Shown: positions 2,346 to 46,540 of the stretch, one piece after another
Layout: each line of letters starts with the position of its first letter
Numbering within the stretch: position 1 is the stretch's first letter
Assembly (NCBI GenBank): GCA_016935665.1
Contig: JAFGQN010000030.1
Span: forward strand, 1-49,451
Direction: 5' to 3'
Length of the DNA stretch: 49,451 nucleotides
Origin: Deltaproteobacteria bacterium
GTDB lineage: Bacteria; Myxococcota_A; Polyangia; JAAYKL01
Position numbers and translations under genes: made by a program
The notes under the pieces: model-generated
What the model was told of the DNA's origin: nothing
Database searches by the model: none
The model's input: the letters and a program-made list of their open reading frames with translations, nothing else

Positions 2346-3164
2346 TTATTTATTGAGATCTTTCTCCAGATCGGAGAGGTCAGGCAATTCGTTGAGGTTG
2401 GGCAGCAGGGTAATTTCGATGCGGCGGTTGGCTGCCTGGCCTTCTTTGGTGTCGTTGGACTCCGAGGGACGGAACTCCGCATAACCGGCTGCGGATACGT
2501 TGCGTGGATCCACCCCGTTTTCCTGCAGAAACTTAACAACATTTACCGCACGCGCCGAAGACAGTTCCCAGTTGGAGGGGAACTTTTTGGAGCTGATTGG
2601 AACGTTGTCGGTGTGACCGGCCACCTGGAATTTGCGATCGGGAATGCTGGCGAGAATGGCCGCAAGGTCGGTCAATGCAGCTTCACCTTCTTCGCTCAGT
2701 TTGGCTTTACCGGTTTCAAACAGAATGCTGGACGCCATTTGAACCACCATCTGGCCATCGACAATTCTGATTTTCAATTTGCCCGAATTGACCAGTTCTT
2801 TGAATTGCTCAATTACCTTGCGGTACTGAGCCATTCGTTTTTTCTGAGCTTCCTGCTCGGCGCGCAGACGCGCTTCGCGGGCTTTGGTGGCTTCGAGGTC
2901 AGATGCCAGTTCGCTCTTTTGTCCAAGCAGTGCCTGAACGTTTTGTCCCAGTGCCGCGAGGCGGTCGGACATTTTCTTGTTTTCGACACCCATTTTGTCG
3001 AGTTTCTGCTGCATCTCCTCGTACGCCTGAGTTGCCGCGGCTAAATCTTCAGCCAGTTTGTTTGCTTCGTTTACCTTGGCCTGGTATTCTTCTTCGGAAT
3101 ATCCGCATGCCACAACGGCAAGACAAAGCGAGATCAGTATTGACACTTTGAAAATGGACTTCAT
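2346..3164 (-). CDS. OmpA-family peptidoglycan-binding lipoprotein
   Basis: A 272-residue outer-membrane lipoprotein. A signal peptide ends in a lipobox with Cys20 (AVVAC). Residues about 25-130 form a long heptad-rich coiled coil full of Glu, Lys, Gln and Ala. The C-terminal half is an OmpA/MotB-like domain with VAGHTDNVPI, SSARAVNVV and AGYAEFRPS, the core that binds diaminopimelate in peptidoglycan. It probably tethers the outer membrane to the wall, with the coiled coil as a periplasmic spacer. AAGGAG sits six bases before the ATG. It lies 66 bases downstream of mglA and 15 bases upstream of the Ppx/GppA gene on the same strand, so an operon is likely. Confidence 0.85.
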   Translation of the reverse strand: MKSIFKVSILISLCLAVVACGYSEEEYQAKVNEANKLAEDLAAATQAYEEMQQKLDKMGVENKKMSDRLAALGQNVQALLGQKSELASDLEATKAREARLRAEQEAQKKRMAQYRKVIEQFKELVNSGKLKIRIVDGQMVVQMASSILFETGKAKLSEEGEAALTDLAAILASIPDRKFQVAGHTDNVPISSKKFPSNWELSSARAVNVVKFLQENGVDPRNVSAAGYAEFRPSESNDTKEGQAANRRIEITLLPNLNELPDLSDLEKDLNK

Positions 3165-3230
3165 CGTAAACTCCTTGCAATTTGTTTTTGTTAATTCGTT
3201 TTAGGAATGTACGCCCGTATGGCCAAATGA

Positions 3231-29549: not shown

Positions 29550-29906
29550 CGGATTCCTTTCCAAAGAACAGAACCGTTCGTGGTTCTGCGCTCATGAAGG
29601 ACATCGGCAAAAAACGGAAAAGATTTAGAAAAAAAATGAAAAAACAAATGTTTGGGGATTGCACCGCCTCAATTTTGGCAATCTGCTTTTGTGGATACAC
29701 CTCGCATACATCGGCTCGAATGCTCGCAAAGAATGATGTCTCATTTAAATTTCCTGTTGTTTCCCATAAAAATTTCATCTACCCCCGTCGAATAGTTCCC
29801 ATTTTTCATCCCAAAGGGGTTTTTTTCGCAAAACAGCGATACGCTGTGGTATTCTGACATAATCTTCACAGTATCAAAGATCGCTTTAGGTATAAGGAAT
29901 AATGTC
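29550..29906. other. intergenic region between divergent kinase operon and Tat lipoprotein
   Basis: This 357-base gap contains no frame I would call. A 100-codon minus-strand frame (29476-29778) overlaps it but is rich in Phe and Cys, lacks a ribosome-binding site and overlaps the small ORF. The gap should hold the two divergent promoters. Close to the lipoprotein gene are AT-rich stretches and a TAAGGAATAATGTC-ATG ribosome-binding site. No riboswitch or RNA gene was recognised. Confidence 0.5.
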
Positions 29907-30500
29907 ATGACAAAATCAAAAAAACCGTTCAGGAAAGCGCTTTCGCCCAGGTATCCACAGAAAAGTGAATTGGCGAACAGACGTGCATTTTTAAAGCGCG
30001 TGGGAAAAGCAGGCGTGCTGGGAGCCGCCGGAATGCTGCTTCTGGGATGCGACGACGTGGGTGATACCTTTAATGGAACGGGGGACAGTGACACCGCAGT
30101 GGATACAGGATACCTGGCGGGCGACATCGAAATGACCACAGACAGTGGAAAAATCACCGGTGTGGATTCCGAAACAGAAACGGCCTCTGAAAAGGTGGTG
30201 GAGACCGATGAGGGCATTTTGATGGGGGATATTGCGCAGGAGGAAACCGATTCCGACACGGTCATCGACACCGACCGTGACACCGCCATTGACACCGATG
30301 AAGGCGTACTGGCGGGAATGGAAGCTGTGGAGGAAGAATCCGATTCCGATACAGGTAGCGATACAGATGAAGGGATTCTGGCCGGCGATATTGCGCAGGA
30401 GGAAACCGATTCGGACGATACCGAGACCTCAGAGCGCGACAGCGATACCGCTGATGACTCTGACTCCGACGAGGGCCTTTTGATGGGAATCATCGAGTAA
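29907..30500 (+). CDS. Tat-exported lipoprotein with five DEGxLxG repeats, candidate modified precursor
   Basis: A 197-residue protein. A twin-arginine signal (NRRAFLKR, Arg25-Arg26) and a lipobox (LLLGC, Cys48) lie in one leader, so it should be exported by Tat and lipidated. The mature part is a series of acidic Ser/Thr/Asp linkers separating five copies of a ten-residue motif: DTGYLAGDIE (66-75), DEGILMGDIA (101-110), DEGVLAGMEA (131-140), DEGILAGDIA (154-163) and DEGLLMGIIE (188-197, the exact C terminus). Nothing else in it looks folded. The radical SAM/SPASM gene begins 12 bases after its stop. The repeats are the likely modification sites, as in multi-core ribosomally made peptides; this is inference. 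AAGGA eight bases upstream supports ATG 29907. Confidence 0.82.
   Translation: MTKSKKPFRKALSPRYPQKSELANRRAFLKRVGKAGVLGAAGMLLLGCDDVGDTFNGTGDSDTAVDTGYLAGDIEMTTDSGKITGVDSETETASEKVVETDEGILMGDIAQEETDSDTVIDTDRDTAIDTDEGVLAGMEAVEEESDSDTGSDTDEGILAGDIAQEETDSDDTETSERDSDTADDSDSDEGLLMGIIE
30228..30412 (+). repeat. 26-bp direct repeats within the Tat lipoprotein gene
   Basis: An identical 26-base segment, beginning GATATTGCGCAGGAGG, occurs at 30228-30253 and again at 30387-30412. It encodes the DIAQEETDS part following the second and fourth core motifs. Exact identity at DNA level, including third positions, points to recent internal duplication of a repeat unit rather than selection on protein alone. Confidence 0.85.
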
Positions 30501-30512
30501 TCCGCGTTACCT

Positions 30513-31592
30513 ATGCACGTCATCTTATTTTTGAATCACAGTTGCAATCTGGCTTGTCGATACTGTTATAACGGGCAAAAGTTTCACCGGCCCATGTCCC
30601 TGGAAATGATCGAGAAAGGAATCGACTTCGCATTTTCGGCCGGTGATGTCCGCATCACGTTTTTTGGCGGTGAACCCCTGCTCGAATTTGAGAGTATCCG
30701 TCACGCCGTGGCCTATGCCCAAAAAAAATCCAAAGAGACGCAAAAAAAGCTGCTGCGCTTTTCGCTCACTGTGAATGGCACACTGCTCGACGACAAAAAA
30801 CTTGCGTATTTTAAAGAGGAAAATTTCTTTGTGGCAGTAAGCCTCGATGGCATTCCGGAAGCCAACGACTTTCACCGCGTATACACCGACGGAAGTCCCA
30901 GCTACACCGATGTTGTCCGCGGCCTTGACCTGGTAAAGAAGTATTACGGGAAAACCGCCACGTCATCCACGGTGGATCCGGGAACAGTGCAGTGGCTGTC
31001 CCAATCCTTTTTACACATCGTTGAACTGGGTGTTTCCCGATTCAGTTTTAATTTCAATTATGACGCACCCTGGAATGAGGACACTCTTGATGTTTACAAA
31101 CACCAAATGGCGCTGGTGACCGAGCACTATATCAACGCGTTTCGCGCCGGCAATGCCATCAATTACACCACGTTCACTTCCAAAATCAGAGGCCACCTCA
31201 ACGGCCGATTGCGCTCCAAATGTCTGTTTGGTGAAGGGGAAGTGACCCTTGCGCCTTCGGGACGACTGTATCCGTGCGAGCGGTTGGTGGGAGAGGATAT
31301 GGGGGGCGAACTGTGCATTGGGGATATTGACAAAGGAATTGATTTGCACAAGGTGCTTGCATTCAAAAAGGCCCGGTTGCATACAGACGTGGAGTGCAGC
31401 GCCTGCCAGGTGGAATCCCGCTGTATTCATTTTTGCGGATGCGTCAACTGGTCCACCACCGGCACCATCGGTAACGTGTCCAGTCTGCTGTGCGACGTGG
31501 AACAAACCACCATTCAATGCGCAGACCGTGCCGCCAGTGTACTGTACGAAGAAAAAAACCCCGCTTTTCTTAAAATGTTCTACGGTGTGTAA
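30513..31592 (+). CDS. radical SAM/SPASM-domain peptide maturase candidate
   Basis: A 359-residue radical SAM enzyme. The SAM-cluster motif CNLACRYC has Cys11, Cys15 and Cys18, followed by Tyr19 as in many SPASM proteins. FFGGEPLLE is at 50-58, and TVNGTLL and VSLDGIPEANDFHR follow. The C-terminal SPASM region binds auxiliary Fe-S clusters through Cys237, Cys255 (GRLYPCERL), Cys295, Cys298, Cys304, Cys308, Cys310 and Cys327. Such enzymes install thioether, C-C or other crosslinks in peptides or activate sulfatases by formylglycine formation. No sulfatase is in the window, whereas a repeat-bearing lipoprotein precedes it by 12 bases with no strong ribosome-binding site between, suggesting coupled translation. 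That protein is the probable substrate. Confidence 0.9.
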   Translation: MHVILFLNHSCNLACRYCYNGQKFHRPMSLEMIEKGIDFAFSAGDVRITFFGGEPLLEFESIRHAVAYAQKKSKETQKKLLRFSLTVNGTLLDDKKLAYFKEENFFVAVSLDGIPEANDFHRVYTDGSPSYTDVVRGLDLVKKYYGKTATSSTVDPGTVQWLSQSFLHIVELGVSRFSFNFNYDAPWNEDTLDVYKHQMALVTEHYINAFRAGNAINYTTFTSKIRGHLNGRLRSKCLFGEGEVTLAPSGRLYPCERLVGEDMGGELCIGDIDKGIDLHKVLAFKKARLHTDVECSACQVESRCIHFCGCVNWSTTGTIGNVSSLLCDVEQTTIQCADRAASVLYEEKNPAFLKMFYGV

Positions 31593-31593
31593 C

Positions 31594-31614
31594 GCGTTTG
31601 CCAAACGCTTTTTT
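31594..31614 (+). terminator. rho-independent terminator after the radical SAM gene
   Basis: GCGTTT-GCC-AAACGC forms a six-pair stem with a three-base loop, followed directly by six T. It starts two bases after the radical SAM stop codon and closes the lipoprotein/radical-SAM unit, separating it from the convergent hybrid kinase gene. Confidence 0.8.
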
Positions 31615-43400: not shown

Positions 43401-43538
43401 CCGCATTTTTATTCCTCCACCAGATTACTTCTTGTTGGATACAAAAGTTTTTGATACAACAGGCGAAAGGTCAAAATTTGTTTATTGTCGATTTCTCTTT
43501 GAAATAAGGCTGAGCATCGGATGCGAGGATTGATTTCC

Positions 43539-44237
43539 ATGACTATTTTTTTAAAGAACAGACAGCTGCTGGAAGATTTTAGAGAAGGCAAAAAAGATGC
43601 GCTGCAATCCGTTTATCAAAGCTACCGTCAGGATGTGGAACGGTTTGTCTCATGTGGATGGATTAGTAAAAAGACGAAAATGAGATCCCGTGTGAATTTC
43701 AGCGGCGATAACGATTTGCGAATTGAGCTGATTCAGGAAGTATTTTTAAGGGCGTTTTCAAAGAATGCACGAGTTTCCTATGATGGTGTTCGGCTGTATC
43801 GGAACTATTTGCTGACGCTGGCGCGCAATGTTGTTGTTGATTATGTCAACGCTCATCCGGATGAGTCGAACACACATGTCAGTGTGGACATGGAGATTGA
43901 TCGGGTCGGGTCAATCCAGATCCTTTCTGCTGAAGATGATCCATACGTCTCTCCCGAGGAGTCGCTTAACTGGCAGCGGTGTGTCAGAGCAATGCGCGAA
44001 TATGTCGCCGCCCTCGACGACACGATGCAGCAGTTCGTACAATTGAGATTCAGACAGGAACTGACGTTGCTGGAAGTCGCGCGGCGCCTGAACATTTCAA
44101 GAGGAAAGGCGCGCCATATGGAGAAGCAGCTGGGACGAGAGCTTAAAAGCTATCTTGAAGAGCGACACCTGATTTCTTCAAAAGAAATACAACAGCTTAC
44201 AGCCAAACTGAATAATATTTCAGTATCTACACCATAG
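43539..44237 (+). CDS. sigma-70 family RNA polymerase sigma factor (ECF-like)
   Basis: A 232-residue two-domain sigma factor. Region 2 covers about residues 12-105, with LEDFREGKKDALQSVYQSYR, LIQEVFLRAFS (the E-V-F-L-R-A-F pattern of region 2) and YLLTLARNVVVDYV. After a 45-residue linker, region 4 covers about 148-207, with the helix-turn-helix TLLEVARRLNISRGKARHMEKQL that would read the -35 box. Region 3 is missing, as in extracytoplasmic-function sigmas, though a 25-residue C-terminal tail is extra. ATG 43539 has AGGA upstream; ATG 43521 is in frame. A single-pass membrane protein and a secreted caspase-like protein follow, so the sigma factor probably controls this module. Confidence 0.85.
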   Translation: MTIFLKNRQLLEDFREGKKDALQSVYQSYRQDVERFVSCGWISKKTKMRSRVNFSGDNDLRIELIQEVFLRAFSKNARVSYDGVRLYRNYLLTLARNVVVDYVNAHPDESNTHVSVDMEIDRVGSIQILSAEDDPYVSPEESLNWQRCVRAMREYVAALDDTMQQFVQLRFRQELTLLEVARRLNISRGKARHMEKQLGRELKSYLEERHLISSKEIQQLTAKLNNISVSTP

Positions 44238-44249
44238 AAGGAAATTGTT

Positions 44250-44939
44250 TTGTCAAAGAAGAATTATCAGGACTGTTTTAGAGTGTTTTCTGAAAGACAG
44301 GGGGTATCGGTTCAGGAGCACGAGCAAATCTTTGAAACAGTTTATAAAAAGACGTCTCAGGCAGAGTCTCCCTATGGGGTAAATCGCGTGCGGCTGACCA
44401 CCTTTTCAAGGTGGGCGGTACCAGTTTTGGCTGGGTGCCTGATTGTCGCCGCTGCGCTCTGGTTCGAATTCCCATATGGCAGTTCGCATTCGAATCGCGA
44501 TGTGACAGATGAATACACGGCAAAGGGAAACAGCTCCGGTCCGCTGGTAATGTTTCAGTGCGCGGACCGCACGACGCCACATACCTGCCACAGAAACGAT
44601 ACGATGATATTTAAAGTGCTTCCGCCAAAGGCACAGCCATACTTCGCATCGTTTGCGCGTCATGTGAAAAGCAACTCTGTGGTGTGGTACTATCCGTCAA
44701 ACGAAAAAGAGAAAAGTGAATTCATCGACGATACCAATTCCGTAACGGCGTTTAGAGAAGGCATTTATATTGGCGATGAACATGTAGCCGGAGATTACGA
44801 ACTGATATCCATTTTTTCCGATCATCCCCTTGCGCTTGACGATATTCGCCAATTGTTTGAAGCGGAACGCAAAATCACTCAGAACGAAATGACCGTTGTA
44901 AAATCTGCCATGACAGTGGCAGGCCAGAAGATTGAATGA
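44250..44939 (+). CDS. single-pass membrane protein, candidate anti-sigma regulator
   Basis: A 229-residue protein with an N-terminal cytoplasmic part of about 52 residues, one membrane helix (WAVPVLAGCLIVAAALWF, about 55-72) and a periplasmic domain of about 155 residues. The topology and position directly after a sigma-factor gene suit an anti-sigma factor, but no zinc-binding HxxxCxxC motif is present, so this is inference from place and shape. The periplasmic part has two Cys (MFQCADRTTPHTCHR) that could pair. It starts at TTG 44250 with AAGGA about eight bases upstream. Its stop overlaps the caspase gene start by four bases (ATGA), so the two products are made together. Confidence 0.65.
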   Translation: MSKKNYQDCFRVFSERQGVSVQEHEQIFETVYKKTSQAESPYGVNRVRLTTFSRWAVPVLAGCLIVAAALWFEFPYGSSHSNRDVTDEYTAKGNSSGPLVMFQCADRTTPHTCHRNDTMIFKVLPPKAQPYFASFARHVKSNSVVWYYPSNEKEKSEFIDDTNSVTAFREGIYIGDEHVAGDYELISIFSDHPLALDDIRQLFEAERKITQNEMTVVKSAMTVAGQKIE

Positions 44940-46540
44940 AGCCTAATTATACATATTTGATACTCTGCATGGTATTGCTTTTTGTTTCAGCACCGGCGGT
45001 GGCCAAAACGAAGGCGTTCGCTCTGGTTGTGGGCAATAACACCGCGCCTCAGGAATCCTCACTTGATACGCTTAAATTCGCTGATGATGATGCGGTGCGG
45101 TTTTATCGTTTTTTTTTGAAATTTGCTGACACCGCTGTGCTCATGACGGTGCCGGATGAGAAAACGCAGGCCCGATATCATGGGATTTCATCCATCGCAA
45201 TGATACCGGATTTGGCGAGGTTTCAGCAGACGTTCAGGAAAATTACACAGAAGATGCAGAAAGCCAGAAACAGCGGATTCGAGACCGTTCTGTATATTAC
45301 ATACAGCGGGCATGGCGCCTATGACGAATCTGGCAATGCCTATCTGACGCTGGTCAGTGGCCGCGTCACGCATCAGATGCTATTTGATGCGATTAAAAAG
45401 GCAAATGCAGATTATACCCATCTGTTTATCGACGCCTGTTATGCGGGAGACATGGTGCACTCCAGGGGTCCGTTCAGTAAAGAAACCAGTGGCCGGCGGG
45501 TGACAGTTCCCGACGAAATGATGGATTCGCTGACTGATGAGACCCGAACGTCGCTGCCCGGACTCGGCGTACTCATTGCCGCATCGGAGAATGGCATGAC
45601 TCATGAATGGTCTGCGATTGAATCCGGAGTGTTTACCCATGAACTTCTTTCGGGCCTGTCGGGTCCTGCGGATATCAATCTCGATGGCAGGATTGAATAC
45701 AGTGAAATTGTTGCGTTTGTTTCCGTTGCGAATCGTAATGTGGAAGACATCCGGGGGAAGATCCGAATCATTGGTGAACCGCCAGGACGAAATCAGAACG
45801 CTCCCATTGTGGATTTGGCGACGCTATCCAATGTGGCGTATCTGGTGGGCAACCCATCACATCTGGGGCATTTTCACGTTGAACTGGATGGTGGTGAGCG
45901 CTATCTGGATGCCAATCTTGGAGATATGATGTGGATGCATGTGGTGCTTCCCGCAAATCGTACTGCATACCTTTATGTGCATGATAAATTTGTGGCAATG
46001 ACACCGCATGACGATGAGGTCATCAGGCTAAAAAATCTAGAATACAGCGGAAATGCGTTCTTACCCAAAGGTCAACTGGACAGGGCGCTGATGGAAGGTT
46101 TGTTTTCAAGCGAATATGGCAGGCGTTACTACACCGGTTTTATTGACAGCGCTCAGCTCACTGGCGTTCGATTTGATACACCTGAATTTCACATGCCCTC
46201 AGCCGGGCCTTTTGATCTGTTTGGGAAGAGACGTAATCAGAGGAAAACTGCCGCCATTGTGAGTTTGAGTATTGCAAGTGTTGCAGCCGCCACCGCGATA
46301 GTGCTGGGGGCGCTCACGATTAATGCCAAAAAGGATTTTGACAATACGGATTATCATAAGCCATCAGTGGATGCCGACGAGCGATATTACCGTTACAGTG
46401 GTGCATTCTGGGGGGTGACAGGCGTGATGGTACTGGGAACGGCGGTTGGTATTGCGTTGATGCCAAAGAAGAAAAGGGTGAACAGTCATGGGCTGTCAAT
46501 TGGAGAGTCCAATGCATTGTCACTGACCTGCAGGTTCTAA
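44936..46540 (+). CDS. exported caspase-family (peptidase C14) protein
   Basis: A 534-residue protein with a signal peptide (LILCMVLLFVSAPAVAK). The caspase-like p20 domain at about 25-240 has KAFALVVGNN, LKFADDDAV, the catalytic His126 in LYITYSGHGAYDESG and Cys168 in HLFIDACYAGDM, so the dyad is intact. A middle domain follows at about 280-430. Then come two Ala/Gly-rich helices (AAIVSLSIASVAAATAIVLGAL and FWGVTGVMVLGTAVGIALMP). The tail ends in SLTCRF, an aromatic-terminated strand. The protease would therefore act outside the cytoplasm. It is translationally coupled to the preceding membrane protein, and the lectin lipoprotein begins one base after its stop. Substrate unknown. Confidence 0.88.
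   Translation: MKPNYTYLILCMVLLFVSAPAVAKTKAFALVVGNNTAPQESSLDTLKFADDDAVRFYRFFLKFADTAVLMTVPDEKTQARYHGISSIAMIPDLARFQQTFRKITQKMQKARNSGFETVLYITYSGHGAYDESGNAYLTLVSGRVTHQMLFDAIKKANADYTHLFIDACYAGDMVHSRGPFSKETSGRRVTVPDEMMDSLTDETRTSLPGLGVLIAASENGMTHEWSAIESGVFTHELLSGLSGPADINLDGRIEYSEIVAFVSVANRNVEDIRGKIRIIGEPPGRNQNAPIVDLATLSNVAYLVGNPSHLGHFHVELDGGERYLDANLGDMMWMHVVLPANRTAYLYVHDKFVAMTPHDDEVIRLKNLEYSGNAFLPKGQLDRALMEGLFSSEYGRRYYTGFIDSAQLTGVRFDTPEFHMPSAGPFDLFGKRRNQRKTAAIVSLSIASVAAATAIVLGALTINAKKDFDNTDYHKPSVDADERYYRYSGAFWGVTGVMVLGTAVGIALMPKKKRVNSHGLSIGESNALSLTCRF

Follow-up and report, generated by a model that had tools for sequence, protein, structure and literature searches.

We propose that two adjacent genes in the window, a stretch of 49,451 nucleotides from a Deltaproteobacteria bacterium, encode a system for producing a surface lipoprotein with post-translational modifications. 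We consider it probable that a radical SAM enzyme, guided by a Tyr-Pro (YP) segment, modifies the cores of the lipoprotein, which would then be exported by the Tat route, lipidated and cleaved by LspA. The observations that carry this hypothesis are the anatomy of the pair, its conserved pairing, the leader and core shared with relatives, the co-diversification of enzyme and substrate, and the predicted fold of the enzyme.

The proposed substrate is a Tat-type lipoprotein of 197 amino acids (29907–30500, + strand), preceded by a Shine-Dalgarno-like AAGGA 8 bases 5' of its ATG (29894–29898, +). Its stop is followed after 12 bases by the gene for a 359-aa radical SAM/SPASM enzyme (30513–31592, +; PF04055, 75.4 bits), and an intrinsic terminator, GCGTTTGCCAAACGC followed by T6 (TTTTTT), lies 3' of the enzyme gene (31594–31614, +). 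An earlier note on this DNA had claimed both the 12-base gap and the closing terminator, which the coordinates bear out, and the pair that it observed is confirmed as real. None of the ten window neighbours scanned is a sulfatase. A 260-aa open frame runs antisense to the lipoprotein gene (29741–30523, −) and is probably a by-product of that gene's codon make-up. Elsewhere in the window (43521–46540), a gene for a sigma-70 region 4 protein has a gene for a caspase-domain (C14) protein slightly downstream.

The lipoprotein reads MTKSKKPFRKALSPRYPQKSELANRRAFLK...LLLGC, then 149 residues. It begins with a K/R-rich pre-signal segment, MTKSKKPFRKALSPRYP (29907–29957, +), that ends in [YF]P at residues 16–17 and is the proposed recognition element. 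This is followed by the twin-arginine motif RRAFLK (residues 25–30; 29979–29996, +) and by a lipobox, LLLGC (30036–30050, +), read like the Shine-Dalgarno element from the sequence, whose Cys48 is the predicted lipidation site. No Pfam or NCBIfam family reaches its cut-off on the lipoprotein, the Tat-signal model TIGR01409 falling just short (14.1 bits vs 16.7). The motif, in full NRRAFLK, and a TatC in the genome (PF00902, above cut-off) mark the protein as a predicted Tat substrate, and the same genome carries two LspA genes. The latter lie in tandem at G000:C82:106270-107525, apart from contig G000:C249, on which the TatC matches (G000:C249:21868-23304) form two halves about 258 codons apart in one 527-aa frame; this suggests a TatC that may contain a large insertion. 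When the genome was scanned with a leader profile there was a single further significant match, on contig C224, which was rejected as a further substrate, being a molybdopterin-oxidoreductase-like Tat lipoprotein that has no YP.

The mature part of the lipoprotein is organized around a repeat, D[ETS]G.[LIV][AMT]G, at residues 66, 79, 101, 131, 154 and 188. The six cores, all on the + strand, are DTGYLAGDIE (core 1, 30102–30131), DSGKITGVDS (core 2, 30141–30170), DEGILMGDIA (core 3, 30207–30236), DEGVLAGMEA (core 4, 30297–30326), DEGILAGDIA (core 5, 30366–30395) and DEGLLMGIIE (core 6, 30468–30497), the last of which is the exact C terminus. The earlier note had described five copies spaced 23 to 35 residues apart, the last at the exact C terminus; those five stand, at spacings of 35, 30, 23 and 34 residues, but the actual number is six, because the degenerate copy at residue 79 had gone unlisted. 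In 20,000 shuffles of the mature region, one repeat match appeared in 100 runs and two in none. The mature protein is 35% D/E and 2.7% K/R, and the cores hold 6/6 of its Leu, 12/16 of its Gly and 8/10 of its Ile. Synonymous codons vary among the cores (Gly is GGC, GGG or GGA), and copies 3 and 5 have a 26-base identical stretch in common. There is no Cys, Trp, His or Phe in any core, Ser occurs in copy 2 alone and Tyr in one of the six; the lipobox Cys48 is the sole Cys of the substrate. Because D/T-rich linkers that hold no cores are frequent in other lipoproteins of this genome and its relatives, we regard the cores as the special part of the protein and the linkers as ordinary. Weak matches to the lipoprotein elsewhere were set aside as plain D/T or S/T linkers devoid of cores.

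The enzyme has the SAM-cluster motif CNLACRYC (Cys 11, 15 and 18; 30543–30566, +) and seven SPASM cysteines (C237, C255, C295, C298, C304, C308 and C327; 31221–31493, +) for two auxiliary clusters, in the pattern C237-X12-G-X4-C255, C295-X2-C-X5-C-X3-C308, C327. The CX3CX2C motif, this cysteine pattern and a predicted CteB/anSME-type fold place it in the radical SAM/SPASM superfamily. Its AlphaFold model (pLDDT 94) is closest to CteB (PDB 5wgg; Z 38.4 over 333 residues, 28% identity), followed by anSME (Z 33) and ChlB (Z 32.5). The model aligns with CteB residues 94–450, so that the enzyme starts at the equivalent of CteB residue 94–99 and is predicted to lack the N-terminal RRE of CteB, which we take to be the approximately 94 extra residues of the latter. 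It follows that leader binding would have to use another surface. PDB entry 9gm3, ChlB with a leader, is a possible guide to leader binding; we found no publication on this entry.

No NCBIfam or Pfam family puts a name on either partner of the pair. Among the matches listed, the top NCBIfam model for the enzyme is PapB (NF047865; 213.4 bits vs a cut-off of 340), which is also the best model in the 22 family members scanned. Identity with PapB was rejected on this score and on the lack of a core Cys to pair with Asp or Glu. The SCIFF maturase CteB (151 bits vs 425; N-terminal RRE region missing) and QhpD (TIGR03906; 142 bits vs 453) were likewise rejected, as were a sulfatase maturase (97 bits vs 349, no sulfatase neighbour and no C/S-x-P/A-x-R in the cores) and CcpM, whose cut-off is missed like that of every model listed and whose Cys chemistry the cores exclude.

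Relatives of the window enzyme occur in 24 of 59 sampled genomes, many of the matches being weak. Among 318 genomes from the class, a profile of the family (A1) finds a family enzyme in 80, and it also matches GTDB contigs from other phyla. Homologues of the enzyme adjoin same-leader exported proteins in Myxococcota, Planctomycetota, Verrucomicrobiota (Akkermansia), Lentisphaerota, Kiritimatiellota, Bacteroidota, Bacillota and Fibrobacterota, and the family is thus present in at least eight bacterial phyla. The co-occurrence that the earlier note had wanted searched for does recur in relatives, and the consistent pairing with a sulfatase that it held would count against its proposal was not seen, no sulfatase being among the neighbours scanned. 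Its interpretation is partly supported: the points that could be checked stood, but it missed the wider family defined by the YP segment, many members of which have a Sec rather than a Tat signal.

Apart from the Tat-signal model, no NCBIfam or Pfam family was found in ten partner proteins. The partners, labelled by hand, are of a core type and of a domain type, the latter with a folded domain that comes after the sequence G[DE]GRGxxGCxxxxPPVxLSEDEA. A model of a domain-type partner is of modest confidence (pLDDT 68) and has no PDB match with E < 0.001. Repeats are not needed, as the folded-domain partners show. A strict adjacency rule failed at 39–41 of the 83 family loci; at five of these (L185, L042, L045, L053 and L065) a partner was seen by eye, at L054 it was recognized by its domain, and contig ends account for others, some of the genomes being fragmentary. 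No partner was found at L171–L173, L160, L186, L190 or L192. A universal third gene (protease or transporter) was sought at the family loci, and none was found.

Several loci have features of their own. An M50-like membrane metalloprotease is encoded downstream of a short YP lipoprotein at four related Myxococcota loci (L146, L147, L150 and L164). In gut Akkermansia spp. (L042 and L045), the enzyme has short exported YP proteins as neighbours; two of the three have a lipobox, and their core-like motifs, LGGVVMIEP and LSGIPLPP, are single. At L199 (the same locus as L023) a distant radical SAM homologue runs in frame into a YP, a hydrophobic stretch and a 'GEMAGP' region, possibly a fusion of enzyme and substrate, or else read-through of an overlap in a GC-rich frame. 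At L022, in a relative of the same family, a CxxC-repeat protein (GCTSCTYCNRCDSCENCVTCQSCQKC; approximately 2654–3196 on the reoriented strand) comes after a different radical SAM gene, and this pair is likely a separate peptide system. Three tandem radical SAM homologues lie on one contig at G105:C254:32498-36527.

What unites the partners is their N terminus: a K/R-rich segment of about 10–40 residues that ends in Tyr-Pro or Phe-Pro, then a Tat or Sec signal and often a lipobox. Across nine aligned Tat-type leaders, YP and RRxFL are invariant. We scored a locus as having this leader if, within 300 bases of the enzyme gene and on the same strand, an ATG was followed by at least three K/R/H, [YF]P, K/R and a hydrophobic stretch. 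Of the 83 family loci, 42 passed the test, and 2 passed it in antisense; of 48 control loci, which belong to more distant radical SAM enzymes, none did. Related genomes inflate these counts, although the partners are spread over many families and phyla. Replacing [YF]P with other dipeptides gave 2 to 18. We therefore propose the YP segment as a putative recognition element for the enzyme.

The second shared element is the core. An EM motif from all partners was discarded because it was contaminated by the homologous domain of the folded partners (EDEAxxIIxEEL), and the search was therefore repeated on the 33 core-type partners alone. With the window motif not supplied, it returned [L]-[AD]-G-[D]-[IV]-[A]-x-[P] at a log-likelihood of 154.9, compared with 108.6 ± 4.3 (maximum 115.2) for 12 shuffled sets, and the family consensus is Phi-[ADSM]-G-[DG]-[IV]-x-x-P. 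When the window and its two closest relatives were held out, the profile still picked core 5, DEGILAGDIA, as the top site of the window lipoprotein (p=0.001). In a leave-clade-out test the best site had p<0.05 in 19 of 33 partners and was not significant in 14. The motif is centred on one Gly, not on 'DEGxLxG' as the earlier note had it; only this Gly is near-invariant and the cores are otherwise loose, as in LAGDVEQPD, LSGDIAVVDPP, LRGDIAVEP, AGDIAYPYED, LDGMIAECTPG, MIAGDIEEPGYP and, in Fibrobacter, LAGVIAAP set in Ser-rich linkers. Many relatives have a single core. In its linked precursor, its leader conserved across homologues (YP) and its separate Gly-centred core, the pair has the genetic layout expected of a RiPP system.

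The closest relatives bear out the conservation of the repeats. Congeners G002 and G005 retain both genes, and their lipoproteins (L004 and L005) have 3 and 4–5 cores, of which the last is always C-terminal (DVMAGAIEK-stop and YLAGIEKK-stop). Neither gene was found in the incomplete assembly of a third congener, G001. A maximum-likelihood tree built from 115 enzymes places the window enzyme in a supported group with its G002 and G005 counterparts, and the hand-assigned substrate type changes 2 times on this tree compared with 17 on average when labels are shuffled. In other words, enzyme and substrate type co-diversify.

We hypothesize that the cytoplasmic SPASM enzyme, which would have no RRE, grips its substrate through the K/R-rich Tyr-Pro segment ahead of the signal peptide, and may oxidatively or stereochemically alter one residue per core (Phi-x-G-x-Phi) in the unfolded acidic chain. 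The modified protein would then take the Tat route and be lipidated at Cys48 after export, and the LspA cut at Cys48 would take off the YP segment along with the signal peptide. We infer binding through YP, modification of the cores and this order of events; carrying them from the family to the window pair would rely on homology. Modification should precede export because no export signal is present in the enzyme sequence and its clusters depend on the cytoplasm. A dedicated protease or transporter would be unnecessary, since LspA would remove the YP segment with the signal peptide. The residue make-up of the cores speaks against products of the thioether, formylglycine, cyclophane or XYG-splicing kind. 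The candidates that remain are reactions at Gly or at the aliphatic or acidic residues that flank it, such as epimerisation, a TvgB-like C-C bond or desaturation, and we know of no SPASM chemistry that explains the core motifs of the family.

Three other explanations have to be weighed against such a maturation system. The enzyme might modify one site alone, in the C-terminal core or outside the repeats, with the other repeats being decayed copies, spacers or ligand-binding units. The C-terminal position of the last core in all three multi-core orthologues, the many single-core relatives and the degenerate copy 2 of the window would fit this, but the synonymous codon differences among five near-perfect copies imply that several of them are under selection, and core number varies between orthologues whereas core form does not; we think this explanation unlikely. 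Still less likely is that the two genes are mere co-transcribed neighbours, that the enzyme matures a sulfatase or an unlinked protein, and that the repeats are acidic, perhaps Ca-binding, surface units. Same-leader partners recur across phyla and occur at 0/48 control loci, enzyme and substrate type diversify together, the sulfatase-maturase model scores 97 vs 349 bits, and the cores of relatives stand in non-acidic contexts (GGAPMPP, LAGVIAAP), all of which outweighs the second-best fold being that of anSME (Z 33) and the slight resemblance of DTDEG to Ca-binding acidic loops.

We give the least credence, very little indeed, to the enzyme being a thioether maturase of the ranthipeptide type that, like PapB or CteB, acts on Cys. 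Although PapB is the closest NCBIfam model (213 bits), CteB is the closest structure and some relatives have Cys in their cores (ECTPGD, TGC), the lone Cys of the window substrate is the lipobox Cys48, which is required for lipidation; the cores have none, and the PapB cut-off of 340 is missed.

If the maturation of a surface lipoprotein by these two genes is correct, radical SAM enzymes modify surface lipoproteins too, beyond small secreted peptides, and the ordinary lipoprotein pathway handles both export and leader removal. The family would be a large radical SAM case beyond the MNIOs, spread over at least eight phyla and represented in gut Akkermansia and in rumen bacteria. Two genes with a defined tag (YP) and core also make a tractable test system. 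A broader claim seems to us plausible, if just short of likely: that there is, across phyla, a class of exported and mostly lipidated proteins matured by radical SAM enzymes, in which the pre-signal YP is the recognition element, signal peptidase removes the leader, and C-H chemistry at Gly or at a residue that flanks it lies outside the known thioether, cyclophane, ether, splicing and formylglycine products, the window branch being its first Tat-exported multi-core member.

Among known systems, the SCIFF maturase CteB has the same radical SAM and SPASM fold, but it has approximately 94 extra N-terminal residues, and the substrates of SCIFF maturases are small peptides rich in Cys instead of exported lipoproteins. 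QhpD resembles the window enzyme as a SPASM enzyme that matures an exported protein instead of a small peptide; its chemistry is a Cys-Asp/Glu thioether, and we know of no YP leader for it. PapB, the top NCBIfam match, makes Cys-Asp/Glu thioethers (PMC9413430), for which the window cores have no Cys. TvgB acts on the TVGG repeats of TvgA to give cyclopropylglycine, a C-C bond formed on Val with a loss of 2 Da each, and shares with the window pair a radical SAM enzyme and a short repeated Gly-containing core that has no Cys or aromatics (PMC9062424). However, TvgA is not described as a lipoprotein there, its cluster has an extra putative dioxygenase and two membrane transporters (PMC9062424), and Val precedes its Gly where the window family usually has Ala, Asp or Met.

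Sec signals in RiPP precursors have been described as rare (PMC12452194). The earlier note knew of no described family with its motif on a Tat lipoprotein. In the open-access literature searched, with subscription journals outside its scope, we found no description of a radical SAM-lipoprotein family or of a Tat version, and this much of that statement holds; 'new' needs qualifying, however, because RiPP-lipoprotein hybrids made by MNIO enzymes, the DAG-RiPPs, were described in 2025, by authors who suggest that non-MNIO cases may exist (PMC12636315). A RiPP-like maturation of lipoproteins through this new lineage of enzymes, with a leader and a core of its own, appears undescribed in the literature searched. 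The DAG-RiPPs (DybA/DybH, NedA/NedBC) have a precursor with a lipoprotein signal that is modified in the cytoplasm before Lgt and LspA act, and can have repeated cores, EGKCG in NedA (PMC12636315); the window precursor has such a signal in its LLLGC lipobox. They differ in using a multinuclear iron oxidase instead of a radical SAM enzyme and Cys-based motifs, in that DybH reportedly reads a C-terminal motif, and in that Tat and radical SAM go unmentioned in their description (PMC12636315). The best reading of the window system is that it is a radical SAM counterpart of the MNIO DAG-RiPPs.
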